A stretch of DNA of 37,902 nucleotides from a virus, in the IMG/VR virus record IMGVR_UViG_3300045918_000235, positions 1 to 37,902 of that record. One strand, 5' to 3'. The position numbers and the translations under genes were made by a program. Below the pieces are notes generated by a model. That model was not told where the DNA came from and ran no database searches. It was given only the letters and a program-made list of their open reading frames with translations. This document shows positions 1-36,965 of the stretch, piece after piece (position 1 is the first letter of the stretch; each line of letters begins with the position of its first letter).

Positions 1-105
1 TGGATCGTTTGAGTATATATCCATGACTCTCCAAAGAGTAATTTCGTTATTCTGTTTATCCTCTTCTGTATAATACTCCCAATCTTTCATTTCATTAAAT
101 TCCAT
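1..105 (-). CDS. Small early protein, cut by the left edge
   Basis: Leftward reading frame whose ATG is at 105..103, preceded by an AAAGG ribosome site. 35 codons lie in the window: an acidic, Trp/Tyr-containing peptide (MEFNEMKDWEYYTEEDK...). No family is recognised. If the window is circular, the frame runs on through 37902..37888 as MSLQ and a TAA, giving a 39-residue protein. It is the first gene after the leftward promoter at 141-167 and would therefore be the most promoter-proximal early gene, the usual place for small host-takeover proteins; that role is inference only. It is too short to judge by coding statistics. Confidence 0.55.
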   Translation of the reverse strand, partial: MEFNEMKDWEYYTEEDKQNNEITLWRVMDIYSNDP

Positions 106-140
106 ATTTACCTTTTTGTTTTAATTAATAATTAATATTT

Positions 141-167
141 ATTATAATAGAATAATTAATGTGTCAA
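141..167 (-). promoter_or_regulatory. Leftward early promoter candidate
   Basis: On the minus strand TTGACA (167..162) is followed after 15 bases by a perfect TATAAT (146..141), or after 17 bases by TAATAA. Transcription would begin about 30 bases before the ATG at 105, leaving room for its ribosome site. The 15-base spacing is short, so the exact -10 box is uncertain. The -35 box is the outer end of the left arm of the inverted repeat at 163-327. Confidence 0.6.
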
Positions 168-327
168 CAAAAAGCGTGTATGTATGATGTTTTTTGAATG
201 TCTGTTTTTTACATAAAAAAAGAAAATAATATATATTATATAATATATATATATGCCCTTTTAAAACTTTTTTGTATGTAAAATAGACATTTGTTGAAAA
301 TATCATACATGCATATTGTTTGTTGAC
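163..327. repeat. Long imperfect inverted repeat with AT core
   Basis: Left arm 163-222 and right arm 267-327 (about 60 nt each) are imperfect inverted copies. Shared blocks are GTCAACAAA, ATGTATGAT, AATGTCT, TTTTACATA and AAAAAAG. The 44-nt spacer is nearly all A/T with alternating TA runs and should melt easily. GTTGAC sits at the outer end of both arms, so both arms point promoter-like -35 boxes outward (TTGACA leftward, TTGACG rightward at 323-328 with a weak TATTTT at 347-352). This fits a shared operator or an origin of replication. Confidence 0.65.
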
Positions 328-653
328 GGGAATATTTATACTACTTTATTTTTAATAATATTGCAAATTTCTTTTTGTTCTTTATTTAATTCATCTACAG
401 TACTAACCTCATCAAAATTGTGGCAAATGCATGATTCTATTAGCTAAGATACACTTTTATCTGTCTTGTATGATAGATACTTTAAGTACTTTAATATGTT
501 TGTGCTTATAGTTATACTTGTATTTTACCGTGACTCATCTTGTCTATCTAACCACTCATCTTTTAAAAAACTGTGATAAAATATAACTTTTGTAATTGAC
601 ACAATAGCCAATATGATATCAACAAAATCTATTTACTAAACAAGGCGGTGTTT

Positions 654-716: not shown

Positions 717-773
717 AGTATGTAGATGCAAGCAGTATGCCAGTGATGCAGTAGACTAACGCATATAGAGCAG

Positions 774-843
774 AGGGGGGTGTTTGACGACTGCGTTCAG
801 CAAAGAGGGTAGGTGTAGGGGGTATGAGAGCTTTGTGGGGTGG
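774..843 (+). other. G-rich tract, possible G-quadruplex or packaging signal
   Basis: The plus strand carries runs of six, three, five, four and three G (around 774-780, 809-811, 819-823, 836-839 and 841-843) in an otherwise AT-rich genome. Loops between the last four runs are about 7, 12 and 1 nt, so a G-quadruplex is possible but not ideal. No gene lies here. Composition and position just before the packaging genes make it worth testing as a structural or packaging element. Confidence 0.35.
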
Positions 844-894: not shown

Positions 895-924
895 TTGACA
901 GTATCATTTAAGTATGAATATAGA
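895..924 (+). promoter_or_regulatory. Rightward promoter candidate for packaging genes
   Basis: TTGACA (895-900) followed after 18 bases by TATAGA (919-924). The octamer GTTGACAG (894-901) is shared exactly with two leftward promoters, at 32031..32024 and 35984..35977. If transcription starts near 931, the first usable start in the next gene is the ATG at 956 and not that at 914. Confidence 0.45.
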
Positions 925-1378
925 TGAACTAAGAAGACAAAAACTAATAGAAGAAATGAATGTTAAACCAGATTTATCAGTTGACTTTGATAATAAGCAA
1001 GAGTTTAAAGATAAACCTACACAGTCATTAATTGATGAACCATCTATAGAGATACCTAATGAAACTGCAGTTAGTAGAGAACCATCTAGTAAGTTACCAA
1101 TAAGCAATGATGATATAGCAAGAAGACAGTTGATGCTAAAACAAGCAAAGCAGAGCGGTGATGATGAGATATATCTTTCATCTCATCCAGAAGAACAGGA
1201 TAAATTAAGATTACTAGATCAAGAGTACTACAATAAACAATCATCTGCACCAGAAAGAGTACCAGAAGATGCTAATTTTGTTAATCAGGCAAAAGATAAT
1301 CAAGACGCATTAAGAAGAATAATGTTCTCAATAGACTACAAAAAGAAAAATAAAATAAATGAAACTGATGGTGCTTAG
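914..1378 (+). CDS. Hypothetical hydrophilic protein at head of late block
   Basis: 154 residues from the ATG at 914; very rich in D, E, K, N and Q, without hydrophobic segments, probably largely disordered with short helices. No family is recognised. The ATG at 914 has no ribosome site and would lie inside the core promoter proposed at 895-924. The ATG at 956 (codon 15) follows AGAAGAA and is the better start if that promoter is used, giving 140 residues. It is the first rightward gene before packaging, so a structural or packaging accessory role is possible, but nothing in the sequence shows it. Confidence 0.65.
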   Translation: MNIDELRRQKLIEEMNVKPDLSVDFDNKQEFKDKPTQSLIDEPSIEIPNETAVSREPSSKLPISNDDIARRQLMLKQAKQSGDDEIYLSSHPEEQDKLRLLDQEYYNKQSSAPERVPEDANFVNQAKDNQDALRRIMFSIDYKKKNKINETDGA

Positions 1379-2428: not shown

Positions 2429-2953
2429 ATGTATTTTAGTGACTATGATCTCATTGATATCAGTGAAAAATTAAACATAAATTTAGATACAGTTAGGTTT
2501 TATGTATTCGGAGAGAATGGGTCTGGATCTAATGAACACTGTTGGTTTCAATTAAAGAAGCAGTTGAATCCTACTAGTGTTGCTACATATATAAAAGATA
2601 AGATAATAGTTTTAGATAAAACGGCTGGATTAGCATTAAATATATTAAATGAAAATTTAAGAAGAGTTCAGAATCAATTGCTAGATGATGATTCATTTAC
2701 ATTGTCAATAGATGATACAAAGAAACTTGCTGGTATTGTTGTTGATATGGATAAGATAGTTAGACTAGAGAGTGGAAAGGCTACAGATATAATTGACAAT
2801 ATTGCACAGATGAGTATTGCAGATGCGAGAAGAATATTAGCGGAAGACCCATTTGCACCTACAGTAATTGAAGCTGAGTTTGATGAATTAGTTGATGAGA
2901 ATGCTATTGAATCAAGCAGAGAAATGAAGCAGGTTACACGTCCATGGAAGTAG
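2429..2953 (+). CDS. Probable terminase small subunit
   Basis: 174 residues from the ATG at 2429. It ends inside the start of the large terminase (10-base overlap), the position expected for the small subunit that recognises the packaging site. Residues 5-45 resemble a helix-turn-helix (YDLIDISEKLNINLDTVRF), followed by a long helical region (about 50-145) suited to oligomerisation and an acidic tail that could contact the ATPase. No catalytic motif is present or expected. The ATG has no good ribosome site and the frame is open for 67 codons upstream, so the true N-terminus may be longer. The assignment rests on position and fold, since small subunits are poorly conserved. Confidence 0.6.
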   Translation: MYFSDYDLIDISEKLNINLDTVRFYVFGENGSGSNEHCWFQLKKQLNPTSVATYIKDKIIVLDKTAGLALNILNENLRRVQNQLLDDDSFTLSIDDTKKLAGIVVDMDKIVRLESGKATDIIDNIAQMSIADARRILAEDPFAPTVIEAEFDELVDENAIESSREMKQVTRPWK

Positions 2954-4386
2954 AAGATCAAGTTAAAAATGCTAAGATTACTGCAGATATGTTATATGAT
3001 CTTGCTCAAGTGTTTACACCTCATGCTGGTCAGATACCAATAGGAAAAGCTCTATTTGGTGATAATAAGAAATTGATAGTAATTGAATGTGGAAGGAAGT
3101 TTGGTAAGACAGATATTCTTTGTTATGCTCTTTATAGATGGGCGATGACTAATCCAAGAACATATTCATATTATATAGCACCGTGGGCGAAACAGATTAC
3201 AGATTTAGTTTGGGCGAATGGAAGATTACCTATGTTCTTACCAGATCATTTAATGAAGAAGTATGTTCATTCTGTAAACAATACAGATAAGCGTATTGTA
3301 TTTAAGAATGGTTCATTTATTAAGTGTGAAGGGAGTGATAACTATGAAGCAGGAAGGGGTTTTTCGGCTACAGGAATGGTTGCGTATGACGAGGCTAAGG
3401 ATCATAATCCTAACTTTCATAATTCCTTTGAACCTAACCTTGCTATTACTGATGCGCCTTTGCTCGTGGTTGGTACTCCAGCTTATGAAGATAATAACTT
3501 ACTTACAAGACTAGGAGACCTAGCTAAGATAACTAAGACAGGGTCTTATAACTCATTTCCATCTCATATGAACCCATACATATCTAAAGAATACTTAGCT
3601 AGAAAAGAGGCTGAGTTTAGAGAGCGTGGAGAATATGATATATTCGAACTTGAGTATCTAGCAAAACGAGTTAAGATTGGAAGTAAGTATATTTTTCCAA
3701 TGCTAAAGAAAAGTATGATTAAGCCACATGGAGAGTTGCTTGAGCATTTACGAATTAATAGAAAAGACTATGACTTTTATACTGGGTATGATCCAGGGTC
3801 AGTTAAGTGCTTTGCTGTGGGATTCACTGCTATACACAGGTATAATAGGAATATCATTATTATTGATGAAATTTACGCCACTAAATTGGGAGAAAACTCG
3901 ACACGACAGATAGTCCCAGTATCATTACAAAAGTCAAATGATATAAATTCTAACAATGATGATTGGAGTGATTGTTATGATTATGCAGCAGCTTGGTTTG
4001 CAAGTGAGATTGCTTATGAGTATCCTGATTACCCTCATGCTTTATTCCCATGTGAGAAAGATTTAAAAAATAAAGAAAATAAATTATCACTTATAAAAGA
4101 TGCATTGCTAGCAGGTCTAATAACATTTAGTGATAAGTGTGAAAAAACATATTGGGAATTTGATAACTATAAACTTGATGATAAAGGTAAGGTAGTTAAA
4201 GAGAACGACCATTTAATTGATCAGTTTAGATATGTTTTAAATCTTGCTGGATTTAGTACAGTAGAAGGTGCGATACCACTTTCATTTCTAGATAAGTATG
4301 GGCCTGGAACACCTAGGTCAGATAGATATATAGAGGACTCTGAGGAGGGTTATGGAGATATTGACGATTACATTATCAATGGTTAG
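2944..4386 (+). CDS. terL: Terminase large subunit (ATPase and nuclease)
   Basis: 480 residues, the usual length for the motor that cuts concatemeric DNA and pumps it into the prohead. Walker A is GRKFGKT (residues 50-56), Walker B MVAYDE (145-150, catalytic Glu 150) and the coupling motif VVGTP (175-179). The RNase H-like nuclease half begins at about 270, with acidic residues at D283 (GYDPGS), the IIIIDE strand (304-309) and a late cluster NDHLIDQFRY (421-430, D422/D426). It overlaps the small subunit and is followed by a membrane-protein frame that begins inside it. It should act at the portal vertex. Confident call. Confidence 0.95.
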   Translation: MEVEDQVKNAKITADMLYDLAQVFTPHAGQIPIGKALFGDNKKLIVIECGRKFGKTDILCYALYRWAMTNPRTYSYYIAPWAKQITDLVWANGRLPMFLPDHLMKKYVHSVNNTDKRIVFKNGSFIKCEGSDNYEAGRGFSATGMVAYDEAKDHNPNFHNSFEPNLAITDAPLLVVGTPAYEDNNLLTRLGDLAKITKTGSYNSFPSHMNPYISKEYLARKEAEFRERGEYDIFELEYLAKRVKIGSKYIFPMLKKSMIKPHGELLEHLRINRKDYDFYTGYDPGSVKCFAVGFTAIHRYNRNIIIIDEIYATKLGENSTRQIVPVSLQKSNDINSNNDDWSDCYDYAAAWFASEIAYEYPDYPHALFPCEKDLKNKENKLSLIKDALLAGLITFSDKCEKTYWEFDNYKLDDKGKVVKENDHLIDQFRYVLNLAGFSTVEGAIPLSFLDKYGPGTPRSDRYIEDSEEGYGDIDDYIING

Positions 4387-26186: not shown

Positions 26187-26888
26187 ATGGATCTATCTAC
26201 CATATTGGTTATATCTGACCTACAAGCACCTCATAATCATAAAGATACAATAGTATTCTTAAAAGAAGTAAAAAAGAGATTCAATCCAACCTATATAATA
26301 GACATTGGAGATCTAGCAGATTTCCATAGACTAAACTTTCATGGGGCAAATCCAAACCTTCCATCAGCTCATGACGAATTAATTAACTTAAGATTGTTTG
26401 TTAAGCAATTGGCAAAGTTATTTCCTTGTATGACAATTATAGATAGCAATCATGATGCTTTACCTAAGAGAAAAGCAAGATCTATAGGTATTCCAGATGC
26501 AATGCTTAAGGATGAGCGTTCCATATTACAAGCTCCACAGACATGGAAGTTTGTTAATGAGCTTGTTCTTAAATTACCAAACAAATTAAAATGTAAATTC
26601 AGACATAATTTTGGATCTAATTTATTATTAGACTCTATTAAGCAAGGAATGAGTGTTGTGTGTGGCCATTTGCATACTAAGTCGAATATTAACTGGTGGC
26701 AGAATGACCATGGTATTAACTTCTCTATGCAGGTTGGTTGTTTAATAGATAGCAATCATCCTGCATTTGATTACGATAAAAATAATGCAATAAGACCTGT
26801 ACTTTCTGTAGGTATAATTAAAGGAGGTGTTCCAATTATTGTACCAATGATAATAAATAATAAGAATGAATGGGTAGGTCACTTATGA
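26187..26888 (+). CDS. Calcineurin-like metallophosphoesterase
   Basis: 233 residues from the ATG at 26187 (AAGGA lies 8 bases upstream); an ATG at 26178 directly follows AAGG and is poorly spaced. The phosphoesterase motifs are present in order: DLQAPH (11-16), GDLADFH (41-47), SNHD (87-90) and GHLH (160-163), giving the residues for a two-metal centre. Related phage enzymes may cleave RNA, DNA ends or nucleotides, and this sequence does not tell which. It is the penultimate rightward gene and overlaps the next by ATGA. Confidence 0.85.
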   Translation: MDLSTILVISDLQAPHNHKDTIVFLKEVKKRFNPTYIIDIGDLADFHRLNFHGANPNLPSAHDELINLRLFVKQLAKLFPCMTIIDSNHDALPKRKARSIGIPDAMLKDERSILQAPQTWKFVNELVLKLPNKLKCKFRHNFGSNLLLDSIKQGMSVVCGHLHTKSNINWWQNDHGINFSMQVGCLIDSNHPAFDYDKNNAIRPVLSVGIIKGGVPIIVPMIINNKNEWVGHL

Positions 26889-32049: not shown

Positions 32050-32274
32050 ATGACTCTAATAGATTTCTTAAATAAAAGCTCACTAATACATTCTAGATTC
32101 GCAGAAAGATGTGGAATTAAGAAATCTGCATTTTGTAGATATGTTAATAAAAGTAGAAAACCAGATCCAATTACTGCAATGAAGATTAAGAAAGAATCTA
32201 AAAATAAAGTAACTGAATTTGATACAATCATTGATAATCACCTTGAAGAAATACGAAACAGCTCATCTATATAG
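32050..32274 (+). CDS. Cro/YdaS-like helix-turn-helix regulator
   Basis: 74 residues from the ATG at 32050, preceded by AAAGG. Pattern FLNKSSLIHSRFAERCGI, KKSAFCRYVNKSRKPDP and ITAMKIKKESK is that of the Cro/YdaS group: short N-terminal helix, HTH with a recognition helix around residues 22-34, and a wing-like end. It is the only rightward gene inside the leftward block, and its end overlaps the helicase gene by 37 bases. It faces the promoter at 32002-32030 and probably controls it. No CI-like partner or integrase is visible. Confidence 0.8.
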   Translation: MTLIDFLNKSSLIHSRFAERCGIKKSAFCRYVNKSRKPDPITAMKIKKESKNKVTEFDTIIDNHLEEIRNSSSI

Positions 32275-33631: not shown

Positions 33632-35929
33632 TTAAATGTTTGGATGAAAGTTATACTTATCACCTGTTCTTCTTATATAGTTATTATCAATAAGCATTTC
33701 AATCGCACCTCTTACTTCAGTAGGACTAAATTTGCATGACCTAATGATATCTCCAAAGAAATTCTTTTCAGAAATTTGAGCTGACTTAATACCATCTAAA
33801 ATTGAGTTACATACTCTTAATGATGTTGAGTAATTATTATTAGACCATGTAATGTCTAAGCATCTTGATTGCCAATTTAGCCATTCAACTGCCATTAAAA
33901 AGTATTTCTTACTAATTTTTGTAACTATTACTCCTGGAGGTGAATCTAATTGAGCAAATATCCATGCTATCTTTACAGACTGACCAGAGTATTTTGATCT
34001 AAATGATCTAATTGCAGATGAATCGTACTGAGAATCTTGTCTTAACTTAAAATCATATTCAAAATATGCTTTTTTAGTTTCTTCACTATCCCATCCAACA
34101 TGTATTTCACTATCATGATCATATAATAATGCAAATTTATTATCTATTAGATATGAGTTTATTTCCTCATCTGAATCTTCCATCATTCTTATTTCTGGAG
34201 ATACATTTATTAAAAAGAATCTTTGGAATAATCCATCATTAACAGTTCCTAATTCCATTTTCCTTATCTCATGAGAAAACGTATCAGTCTGTACACCAAC
34301 TAAGGCACAACCATAAACTCTTCTAGTATTTATATTTAGTCCACCTATTGTTTGATGGCTATGAGTTTCATTAACTGATCCGTTAAGAAGCTTAAGTATA
34401 AACCCTCTCATTGATTCATTTCCAACTTTATTTAATGTCCCCATCATTTGAACAAACTCTGGGATACAAATAAATATTCCTTTGTTCTGGTTTTCATTCA
34501 TCATCTTATAAAGTTTTTCTTGAGTACCTGATTCAAAAGTAAACATTGGATTCTGATTCTTCATATTTACTAGTTCAGATTGAAGCTTAATTGATTCTTC
34601 ATTAAGAGACTTTAGTAAAAATTCATCTGACTCTGCTACTGCTTTTTTCTTTTTTCTATGGTTCTCTTCCAACTTCATTACAGTATTCTTTTCATTCTCG
34701 ATGAAGTCTTCACCTAGTTTTTTTAAATCTCTGTCTTTTAACCTTCTAAATGGTGCTAATGATCCGTCAAATATAGTATCTTTTCTAGATCCAGACGGTG
34801 CAATGATCATCGTAGATATTGTAGGATGTACCACAAAATCTCTCTTTGCATGAATATAGACTTTTCCCTGACATACTACTGAGAATGTTGTCATTATAGC
34901 TGACATAAAAGCCTCTGGAGGCATTGCAGATAACCTAGATAGCTCATGACAATAATCTTTACATGATAATGGGTACAAATGAGATGGGTACTCTACAGCT
35001 TGTTTTGATGTTACCAATGGTGTAATGTTATGCCAGTCTCCATGAACCTGTACAGATTCAGTGACTCTTACTATATTAGACAGCGTCTTTCTCAGATCAG
35101 CATCCGTTCTCATTATGCTATTCTTATAAGTAGAAACCCACATCAATGCATTTTCAAAATCATCTATTTTACTTATTAAATCTTTCCCTATCTTAGATGA
35201 AAAGAAAAACTGATTACCCTGGAACAATCTCCTATCAATTCCAATTAAAGTTTTAGCAATTGAAGCATCATCAATACCTAAATGAAGCAATCTTGACGCC
35301 TCACTAGTTATAGTTTTCCATTTTCCTGACCCATCTCCAGTTATTCCAGTAGGTACAAGCTTTAATCCCTCTTCTAATGAAGGTGCTCTTAATATAGTTT
35401 GCAGATATTCAATTCGCTCCTCATCTATAATTGGAAGATCTTCAATATCTATCTCTAATAAGCTTTGAGAAACCCATGTGTATGGCATACCAGTATCAGG
35501 ATGAATTGATGGTGGCAATACAGTTTGTCCACTGCAAAAGTTAAACTCAACGATAGGCTTCTTATCACCATCTCTTAGGTATATATTGTATTTTGATTTC
35601 TTAGGAGTTGCTATGTATCTAAAGAATACAGTTTTACCTTTCATTCCTTTCTTGCAACATATATTTGAAAGATCCATTACTTCATCTATTTTATAGATCT
35701 GTCCTATATCATTGCTATCGATATCCATAAAACCGATATTATACTGACCAGCTCTAAAACCTAATCCAGTTGCGATACCTAGATACCTCTCTTCCCATGA
35801 ATCTATAACTTCATCTGTAACATTTAACGATTGCCATTCTTGAATGAATGGTGCCTTTCCTTTAACTGGTATACACTGAATCGATGGTGATTTCTGTAAG
35901 TACTCGCTTATTATATTGAAGTAGTTCAT
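33632..35929 (-). CDS. Primase (AEP type) fused to DUF3987
   Basis: 765 residues with AAAGGA before the ATG. N-terminal archaeo-eukaryotic primase fold: FMDID (D69, D71), PIVEF (E128) and SGQTVLPPSIHP (H143). Residues about 300-765 have the layout of DUF3987, a helicase-like ATPase region found in many phage and mobile-element primases. Where the P-loop should be, the sequence reads APSGSRKDT (377-385), with Arg in place of the Gly before Lys and Asp in place of Ser/Thr, so ATP hydrolysis may be changed or lost. It should make primers at the fork and may load or replace a helicase. Confidence 0.87.
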   Translation of the reverse strand: MNYFNIISEYLQKSPSIQCIPVKGKAPFIQEWQSLNVTDEVIDSWEERYLGIATGLGFRAGQYNIGFMDIDSNDIGQIYKIDEVMDLSNICCKKGMKGKTVFFRYIATPKKSKYNIYLRDGDKKPIVEFNFCSGQTVLPPSIHPDTGMPYTWVSQSLLEIDIEDLPIIDEERIEYLQTILRAPSLEEGLKLVPTGITGDGSGKWKTITSEASRLLHLGIDDASIAKTLIGIDRRLFQGNQFFFSSKIGKDLISKIDDFENALMWVSTYKNSIMRTDADLRKTLSNIVRVTESVQVHGDWHNITPLVTSKQAVEYPSHLYPLSCKDYCHELSRLSAMPPEAFMSAIMTTFSVVCQGKVYIHAKRDFVVHPTISTMIIAPSGSRKDTIFDGSLAPFRRLKDRDLKKLGEDFIENEKNTVMKLEENHRKKKKAVAESDEFLLKSLNEESIKLQSELVNMKNQNPMFTFESGTQEKLYKMMNENQNKGIFICIPEFVQMMGTLNKVGNESMRGFILKLLNGSVNETHSHQTIGGLNINTRRVYGCALVGVQTDTFSHEIRKMELGTVNDGLFQRFFLINVSPEIRMMEDSDEEINSYLIDNKFALLYDHDSEIHVGWDSEETKKAYFEYDFKLRQDSQYDSSAIRSFRSKYSGQSVKIAWIFAQLDSPPGVIVTKISKKYFLMAVEWLNWQSRCLDITWSNNNYSTSLRVCNSILDGIKSAQISEKNFFGDIIRSCKFSPTEVRGAIEMLIDNNYIRRTGDKYNFHPNI

Positions 35930-36716: not shown

Positions 36717-36965
36717 TTATTTAAGATTAAAGTATTCCCAATCTGAAACAAAACTGTTTATTTCTATATCAAGAGCTTTAAATATTTTTAATGTTCTAAC
36801 CAAACTCGGAGTAGTTTTACCTACAAAAATATCATTAATGGCACTTTTCAAGATACCTACTTGTTGACCTAGCTCTATTTGGGTAATTCCTTTTTTATGT
36901 AATGCTGTTAATAGTACAAAAGACATAAATTTTCTTAACTCTAGCTCTTCTCTGTCTATCTTCAT
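36717..36965 (-). CDS. XRE-type helix-turn-helix regulator
   Basis: 82 residues after GGGGAG. The HTH is at about 26-62: GITQIELGQQVGI, then KSAINDIFVGKTTPS and LVRTLKIFKALDI, the five-helix XRE/Cro fold with its conserved Gln/Leu/Ser/Pro positions. It is the second regulator in the window, after the Cro-like gene at 32050, and lies in the early operon, so it probably acts early on phage or host promoters. The GTTGACAG elements are possible targets of either one. Confidence 0.83.
   Translation of the reverse strand: MKIDREELELRKFMSFVLLTALHKKGITQIELGQQVGILKSAINDIFVGKTTPSLVRTLKIFKALDIEINSFVSDWEYFNLK

Follow-up and report, generated by a model that had tools for sequence, protein, structure and literature searches.

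What is the mirrored stretch of noncoding DNA that separates the early from the late genes of an uncultured phage? The stretch lies at the beginning of the window, by which we mean the whole DNA analyzed here, a single IMG/VR virus record of 37,902 bp. An earlier note had described it as an inverted repeat with outward-facing promoter boxes at its ends, offering a replication origin, a regulator-bound switch, or both as its role. We suggest that the element is a putative bidirectional replication origin nested with an early promoter, a reading to which we give a probability of about 0.6, and that the switch is its main rival.

The mirrored block and its surroundings

The features on which the argument draws are the following:

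1–105, minus strand: first early (leftward) frame, which begins with ATG at 105 and is cut off by the contig start
141–167, minus strand: leftward early promoter candidate (TTGACA at 162–167, 15-nt spacer, TATAAT at 141–146)
163–221, plus strand: left arm, 59 nt, with gapped symmetry reaching outward to about 133
222–268: A/T-rich core of 47 nt between both arms, candidate unwinding element
253–263, minus strand: TAAAAGGGCAT, in the core and adjoining the right arm
269–327, plus strand: right arm, 59 nt, with gapped symmetry reaching outward to about 360
323–352, plus strand: weak, mirrored rightward promoter-like site (TTGACG at 323–328, 18 nt, TATTTT)
914–1378, plus strand: first rightward (late-side) reading frame
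2944–4386: terminase large subunit, downstream of the 914–1378 frame
32050–32274, plus strand (opposite to the early genes): Cro-like helix-turn-helix (HTH) protein, with a homologue in the same block of the relative G001
33632–35929, minus strand: Prim-Pol plus DUF3987 (MCM-like) helicase plus predicted C-terminal winged helix, the proposed initiator
36717–36965: XRE HTH protein

The two arms, 47 nt apart, are 73% complementary, and in a gapped alignment the mirror spans 133–360. Used as a query on the genome, the element returns its own reverse strand with E = 2.7e-15. Its mirror score of 190 compares with 99.1 ± 11.7 in dinucleotide shuffles, none of which (0/300) reaches it (z = 7.8), and among the inverted repeats of the whole window these arms rank strongest. 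As single-stranded DNA, the element also folds much better than its shuffles do (z = −5.85). The inverted repeat around an A/T-rich core is thus real, and its arms do end in the boxes given for them, GTCAAC at 163–168 and GTTGAC at 322–327. Tandem direct repeats, as in iteron origins of the P4 alpha or lambda O type, do not stand out in either arm of the window (p = 0.18 and 0.10); direct repeats are present in the arms of G001 and of the Bdellovibrio phage phi1422. The arm motif, when sought across the window, has no match beyond the element, including at the promoter of the Cro-like gene itself, and elsewhere in the genomes of relatives it has just a few chance-like matches.

The proposal that both arms carry outward promoters is half supported, because the left box is general and the right one is not. 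At all 10 junctions read, a leftward TTGACA borders the mirrored block on its left, within about 100 bp, whereas the mirrored right-hand TTGACG is clearly common only to the window and G001, its nearest relative. The leftward match of G001 is TTGACA-17-TATAAA; its right-hand TTGACG has no good -10, and a second TTGACA-17-TATTTT is found farther right. Promoter-like sites in the first kilobase of the window are not in excess (9 versus 6.9 ± 2.4 in shuffles).

The element sits inside a noncoding gap, with early genes leftward and late genes rightward. On the left side, which would continue past the contig end in a circular genome (the record itself is no proof of circularity), small early frames are followed by the Prim-Pol/helicase gene; the other leftward genes encode a second helicase, a Sak4-like recombinase, a single-strand binding protein, a Cas4-type exonuclease, an HNH endonuclease, and an exonuclease. 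The rightward genes encode the terminase, portal, major head protein, and further structural proteins. The original description, in which one mirror-symmetric element separates the early from the late module, is supported, and the layout is kept in relatives. Two further features lie to the right of the element. A 25-bp sequence, CATATACTTCACTGCGTATAAGTGA, is directly repeated in two near-identical copies at 664–713. In the noncoding gap ahead of the terminase genes, the window (772–797) and G001 (L007, about 2539–2565) have an identical block of 26 bp around GGGGGGTGTTTGACGACTGCGTT, possibly a packaging site.

Persistence of the mirror in related phages

Relatives were gathered from viral contigs, with sequences of the terminase, portal, and helicase as queries. 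DNA-level searches of a phage collection gave no matches, the sole match in a scan of viral contigs with a conserved 23-mer was G001, and no bacterial genomes carrying terminase or portal relatives were found. A mirrored block of ~160–340 bp occupies the early/late gap in nine phages, including that of the window (G000). It is clear in seven, with mirror z-values versus shuffles from 3.9 to 14.6 (besides the window, G001, 6.1; G003, 3.9; G005, 10.6; L121, 8.9; L126, 5.5; L198, 14.6), and weak in two (G004, 2.1; L118, 2.7). Usually the block is the strongest inverted repeat in the sequence examined for each relative, and the rest of each genome usually contains no inverted repeat of comparable strength. 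Short arms are seen at the contig start of G033, no mirror is significant versus shuffles in L194, and among more distant phages the gap of G007–G010 lacks a comparable element while G006 has a weak one. In L124 the top inverted repeat falls inside coding sequence where the contig ends, and we discounted it as an assembly artifact.

The symmetry is kept, but the sequence of the arms is not, so that the conservation asked for as a check in the earlier note holds for the mirror alone. Arms measure ~30–170 nt across the lineage and are about 70–85% alike within a phage; between phages, the similarity of the mirrored regions is mostly at the level of shuffles. Clearly above that level are the close pairs G003/G004 and G005/L198, and more weakly so G004/L121 and G000/L121. 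Even G003 and G004, which have a conserved core and leftward TTGACA in common, differ so much in the left arm that it can hardly be aligned. The cores of relatives are likewise A/T-rich and share small motifs: TAAAAGGG[C/T]AT occurs once per genome, inside the mirrored region, in G000, G001, and G005, and TAACCCATT is found in the core of G003, G004, G005, and L126. The search for covarying bases, which had also been proposed, gave no signal in the close pairs, where counts of base-by-base compensatory changes are not above slid controls.

Could such symmetry arise with no protein binding at all, from DNA structure or replication slippage, with template switching near the fork copying one arm into the other? 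Arms whose sequences turn over and yet remain mirrored would be expected in that case, and the matches between arms are not consistently clustered in blocks as protein sites would be. Template switching, however, yields near-perfect palindromes, and the arms here are considerably less alike than that. Moreover, the element is fixed in place across the lineage and comparable repeats are usually absent elsewhere, a combination that calls for selection. We therefore consider slippage unlikely.

Contigs end at or in the mirrored element in the window (1–163) and at the starts of G005, G033 (L117), and L119. Either assembly failure or a virion terminus would account for this clustering. Ends lie no more than 200 bp from the element in 3/8 near-complete genomes, for which the binomial chance is about 0.0002, and long inverted repeats mark the protelomerase sites of known linear phages; a DNA end or packaging feature (virion terminus or protelomerase site), or else an invertible segment, would thus be a further way to explain the block. 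But A/T-rich inverted repeats break assemblies too, and G003 and G005 assemble as circles with end overlaps of k-mer length. No match to a protelomerase or to a tyrosine or serine recombinase was found; with no cognate recombinase, the protelomerase site and the invertible segment were rejected. We regard this whole group of explanations as very improbable.

Regulator or replication initiator

The main rival holds that each arm is an operator. A DNA-binding protein encoded by the phage would use the arms to control the divergent transcription of early and late genes, possibly with a loop that spans the A/T core. The leftward TTGACA that flanks the left arm at every junction is in line with this, as are the two small HTH proteins (XRE and Cro-like) encoded in the window. 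In addition, operator sequences evolve quickly together with their regulators. Operator pairs of the Cro/CI type, however, recur at the promoter of the regulator itself, and in the window the arm motif recurs nowhere, even there. HTH genes similar to the Cro-like one are present in G003–G005, and a single residue distinguishes the Cro-like protein of G003 from that of G004, yet the arms of these two phages are partly different. Furthermore, the mirrored right-hand box is clearly shared with G001 only, and the early frames beside the element (read by eye, a few also compared with Pfam and PHROGs) include no recurring regulator that we recognized. As no integrase match was found in the window, nothing points to a lysogeny switch. 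Thus, of the roles first offered for the element, the origin is the better reading, and the switch, weakened by near-identical Cro-like proteins that go with partly different arms and by the solitary motif, appears rather doubtful.

The putative origin has a candidate initiator in the same genome. The protein encoded at 33632–35929 carries Pfam Prim-Pol and DUF3987 domains (PF09250 and PF13148), and its AlphaFold model (mean pLDDT 71) matches the prim-pol of ORF904 from the Sulfolobus plasmid pRN1 (1rni, 3m1m, 9aam) as well as MCM helicases. At its C-terminus the model has a pair of helices and a pair of strands, the arrangement of a winged helix, a domain that we predict from the secondary structure of the model alone. 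If the contig closes as a circle, the element lies ~2.1 kb upstream of the start of this gene. A mirror that is kept while its letters turn over fits a start site for the primase-helicase of the phage itself. GC skew, proposed earlier as a check, does not support an origin: at fourfold sites it flips at the element in the window but is inconsistent in relatives. The counts of compensatory changes do not support one either.

Likeness to known origins

The closest precedent is the origin of pRN1, a stem-loop of roughly 100 bp whose structure is conserved and whose sequence is not. One stem mutant replicated only after the symmetry of the stem had been restored. The stem-loop sits just 3′ of the rep gene and also functions after relocation; ORF904 showed no specific binding to this region. 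The authors of that work proposed similar stem-loops for phages with this type of protein. The phage of the window resembles pRN1 in its replication protein, an archaeo-eukaryotic (AEP) prim-pol fused to an AAA+ helicase and, according to the model, a C-terminal winged helix. It also has a long imperfect inverted repeat in noncoding DNA, the symmetry of which is maintained among relatives while the arm sequence changes. It differs in that the arms of its lineage, ~30–170 nt long, enclose an A/T-rich core, in that its helicase is of the DUF3987 type, and in the place of the element, which is found in the early/late gap, upstream of the primase gene and not directly 3′ of it. Since the position differs and the role in replication is putative, we do not claim formal membership in the pRN1/BIP-1-type origins.

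Other systems share parts of this arrangement. The origin of the Lactococcus phage c2 (Ceduovirus) is in the gap between early and late genes, and several origin types without mutual similarity are known there. The window has the same kind of noncoding gap between divergent early and late modules; unlike it, the c2 gap has no mirrored arms (z = −1.0), and the c2 annotation has no Prim-Pol/DUF3987 gene. A mirror was sought in the c2 origin and in the Baldr gap, and none was found in either. In archaeal chromosomal origins, inverted ORBs flank an A/T-rich unwinding region and diversify along with their initiator. The flanking of an A/T-rich core by recognition elements would be the common feature, whereas the Orc1/Cdc6 initiator gene that adjoins the archaeal origins has no counterpart recognized in the window. 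The statement that no named element has such a layout was therefore too strong, as the pRN1 stem-loop and the archaeal inverted-ORB origins are close analogs.

Mirrored repeats also occur near primase genes in two other phages. Phage phi1422 has one of 310 bp (L274, 14005–14313; E = 7e-37), built of GGTAACA units around an A/T-rich centre. Like the element of the window it is a mirror with such a centre, it directly follows a primase gene, and the phage has the same helicase type (35% identity); it differs in its GGTAACA-type iterons, in its Toprim-type primase, and in lying away from the early/late junction. In the Bordetella phage BPP-1 (L284), a strong mirrored repeat (record 26592–26724; E = 5e-19) with two TTTGCCTCG units per arm has the terminase genes on one side and the primase gene on the other.

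The pRN1-like protein, the stem-loop precedents, the repeats of phi1422 and BPP-1, and the location of the c2 origin lead us to favor a bidirectional origin. The mirrored arms would be docking or structural sites around an A/T-rich core that melts, and the Prim-Pol/helicase/winged-helix protein would assemble on the element as two complexes facing in opposite directions. Both strands would then be primed and two forks started, one through the early and the other through the late module, while origin opening would be coupled to early transcription by the leftward promoter that borders the left arm. By analogy, this may be a known kind of origin, the stem-loop of Prim-Pol replicons, here of a new size and in a new setting, and its symmetry can be traced through a lineage. 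More tentatively, the lineage could represent a class of origins in which selection preserves the symmetry itself and not the sequence, arms being swapped in matched pairs around the A/T-rich core; an initiator acting on arms replaced in this way would read shape or paired geometry.

In uncultured phage genomes, few features are annotated as rarely as the origins. If Prim-Pol phages have their origins at such mirrored blocks between early and late genes, these could be predicted from sequence alone. The lineage would also provide about nine natural variants for the question left open by pRN1, namely in what way an initiator can make use of a stem-loop of unconserved sequence.

Two further observations concern early genes. 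A small lipoprotein-like protein, with a signal peptide ending in SCA and later cysteines, is encoded near the element (L096, 18674–18898), and similar frames are found in L094, L118, L121, L126, and L198. In G001 (L007, 220–1060), the early genes encode glycine-rich proteins with long runs of GDGSGFG-type repeats.
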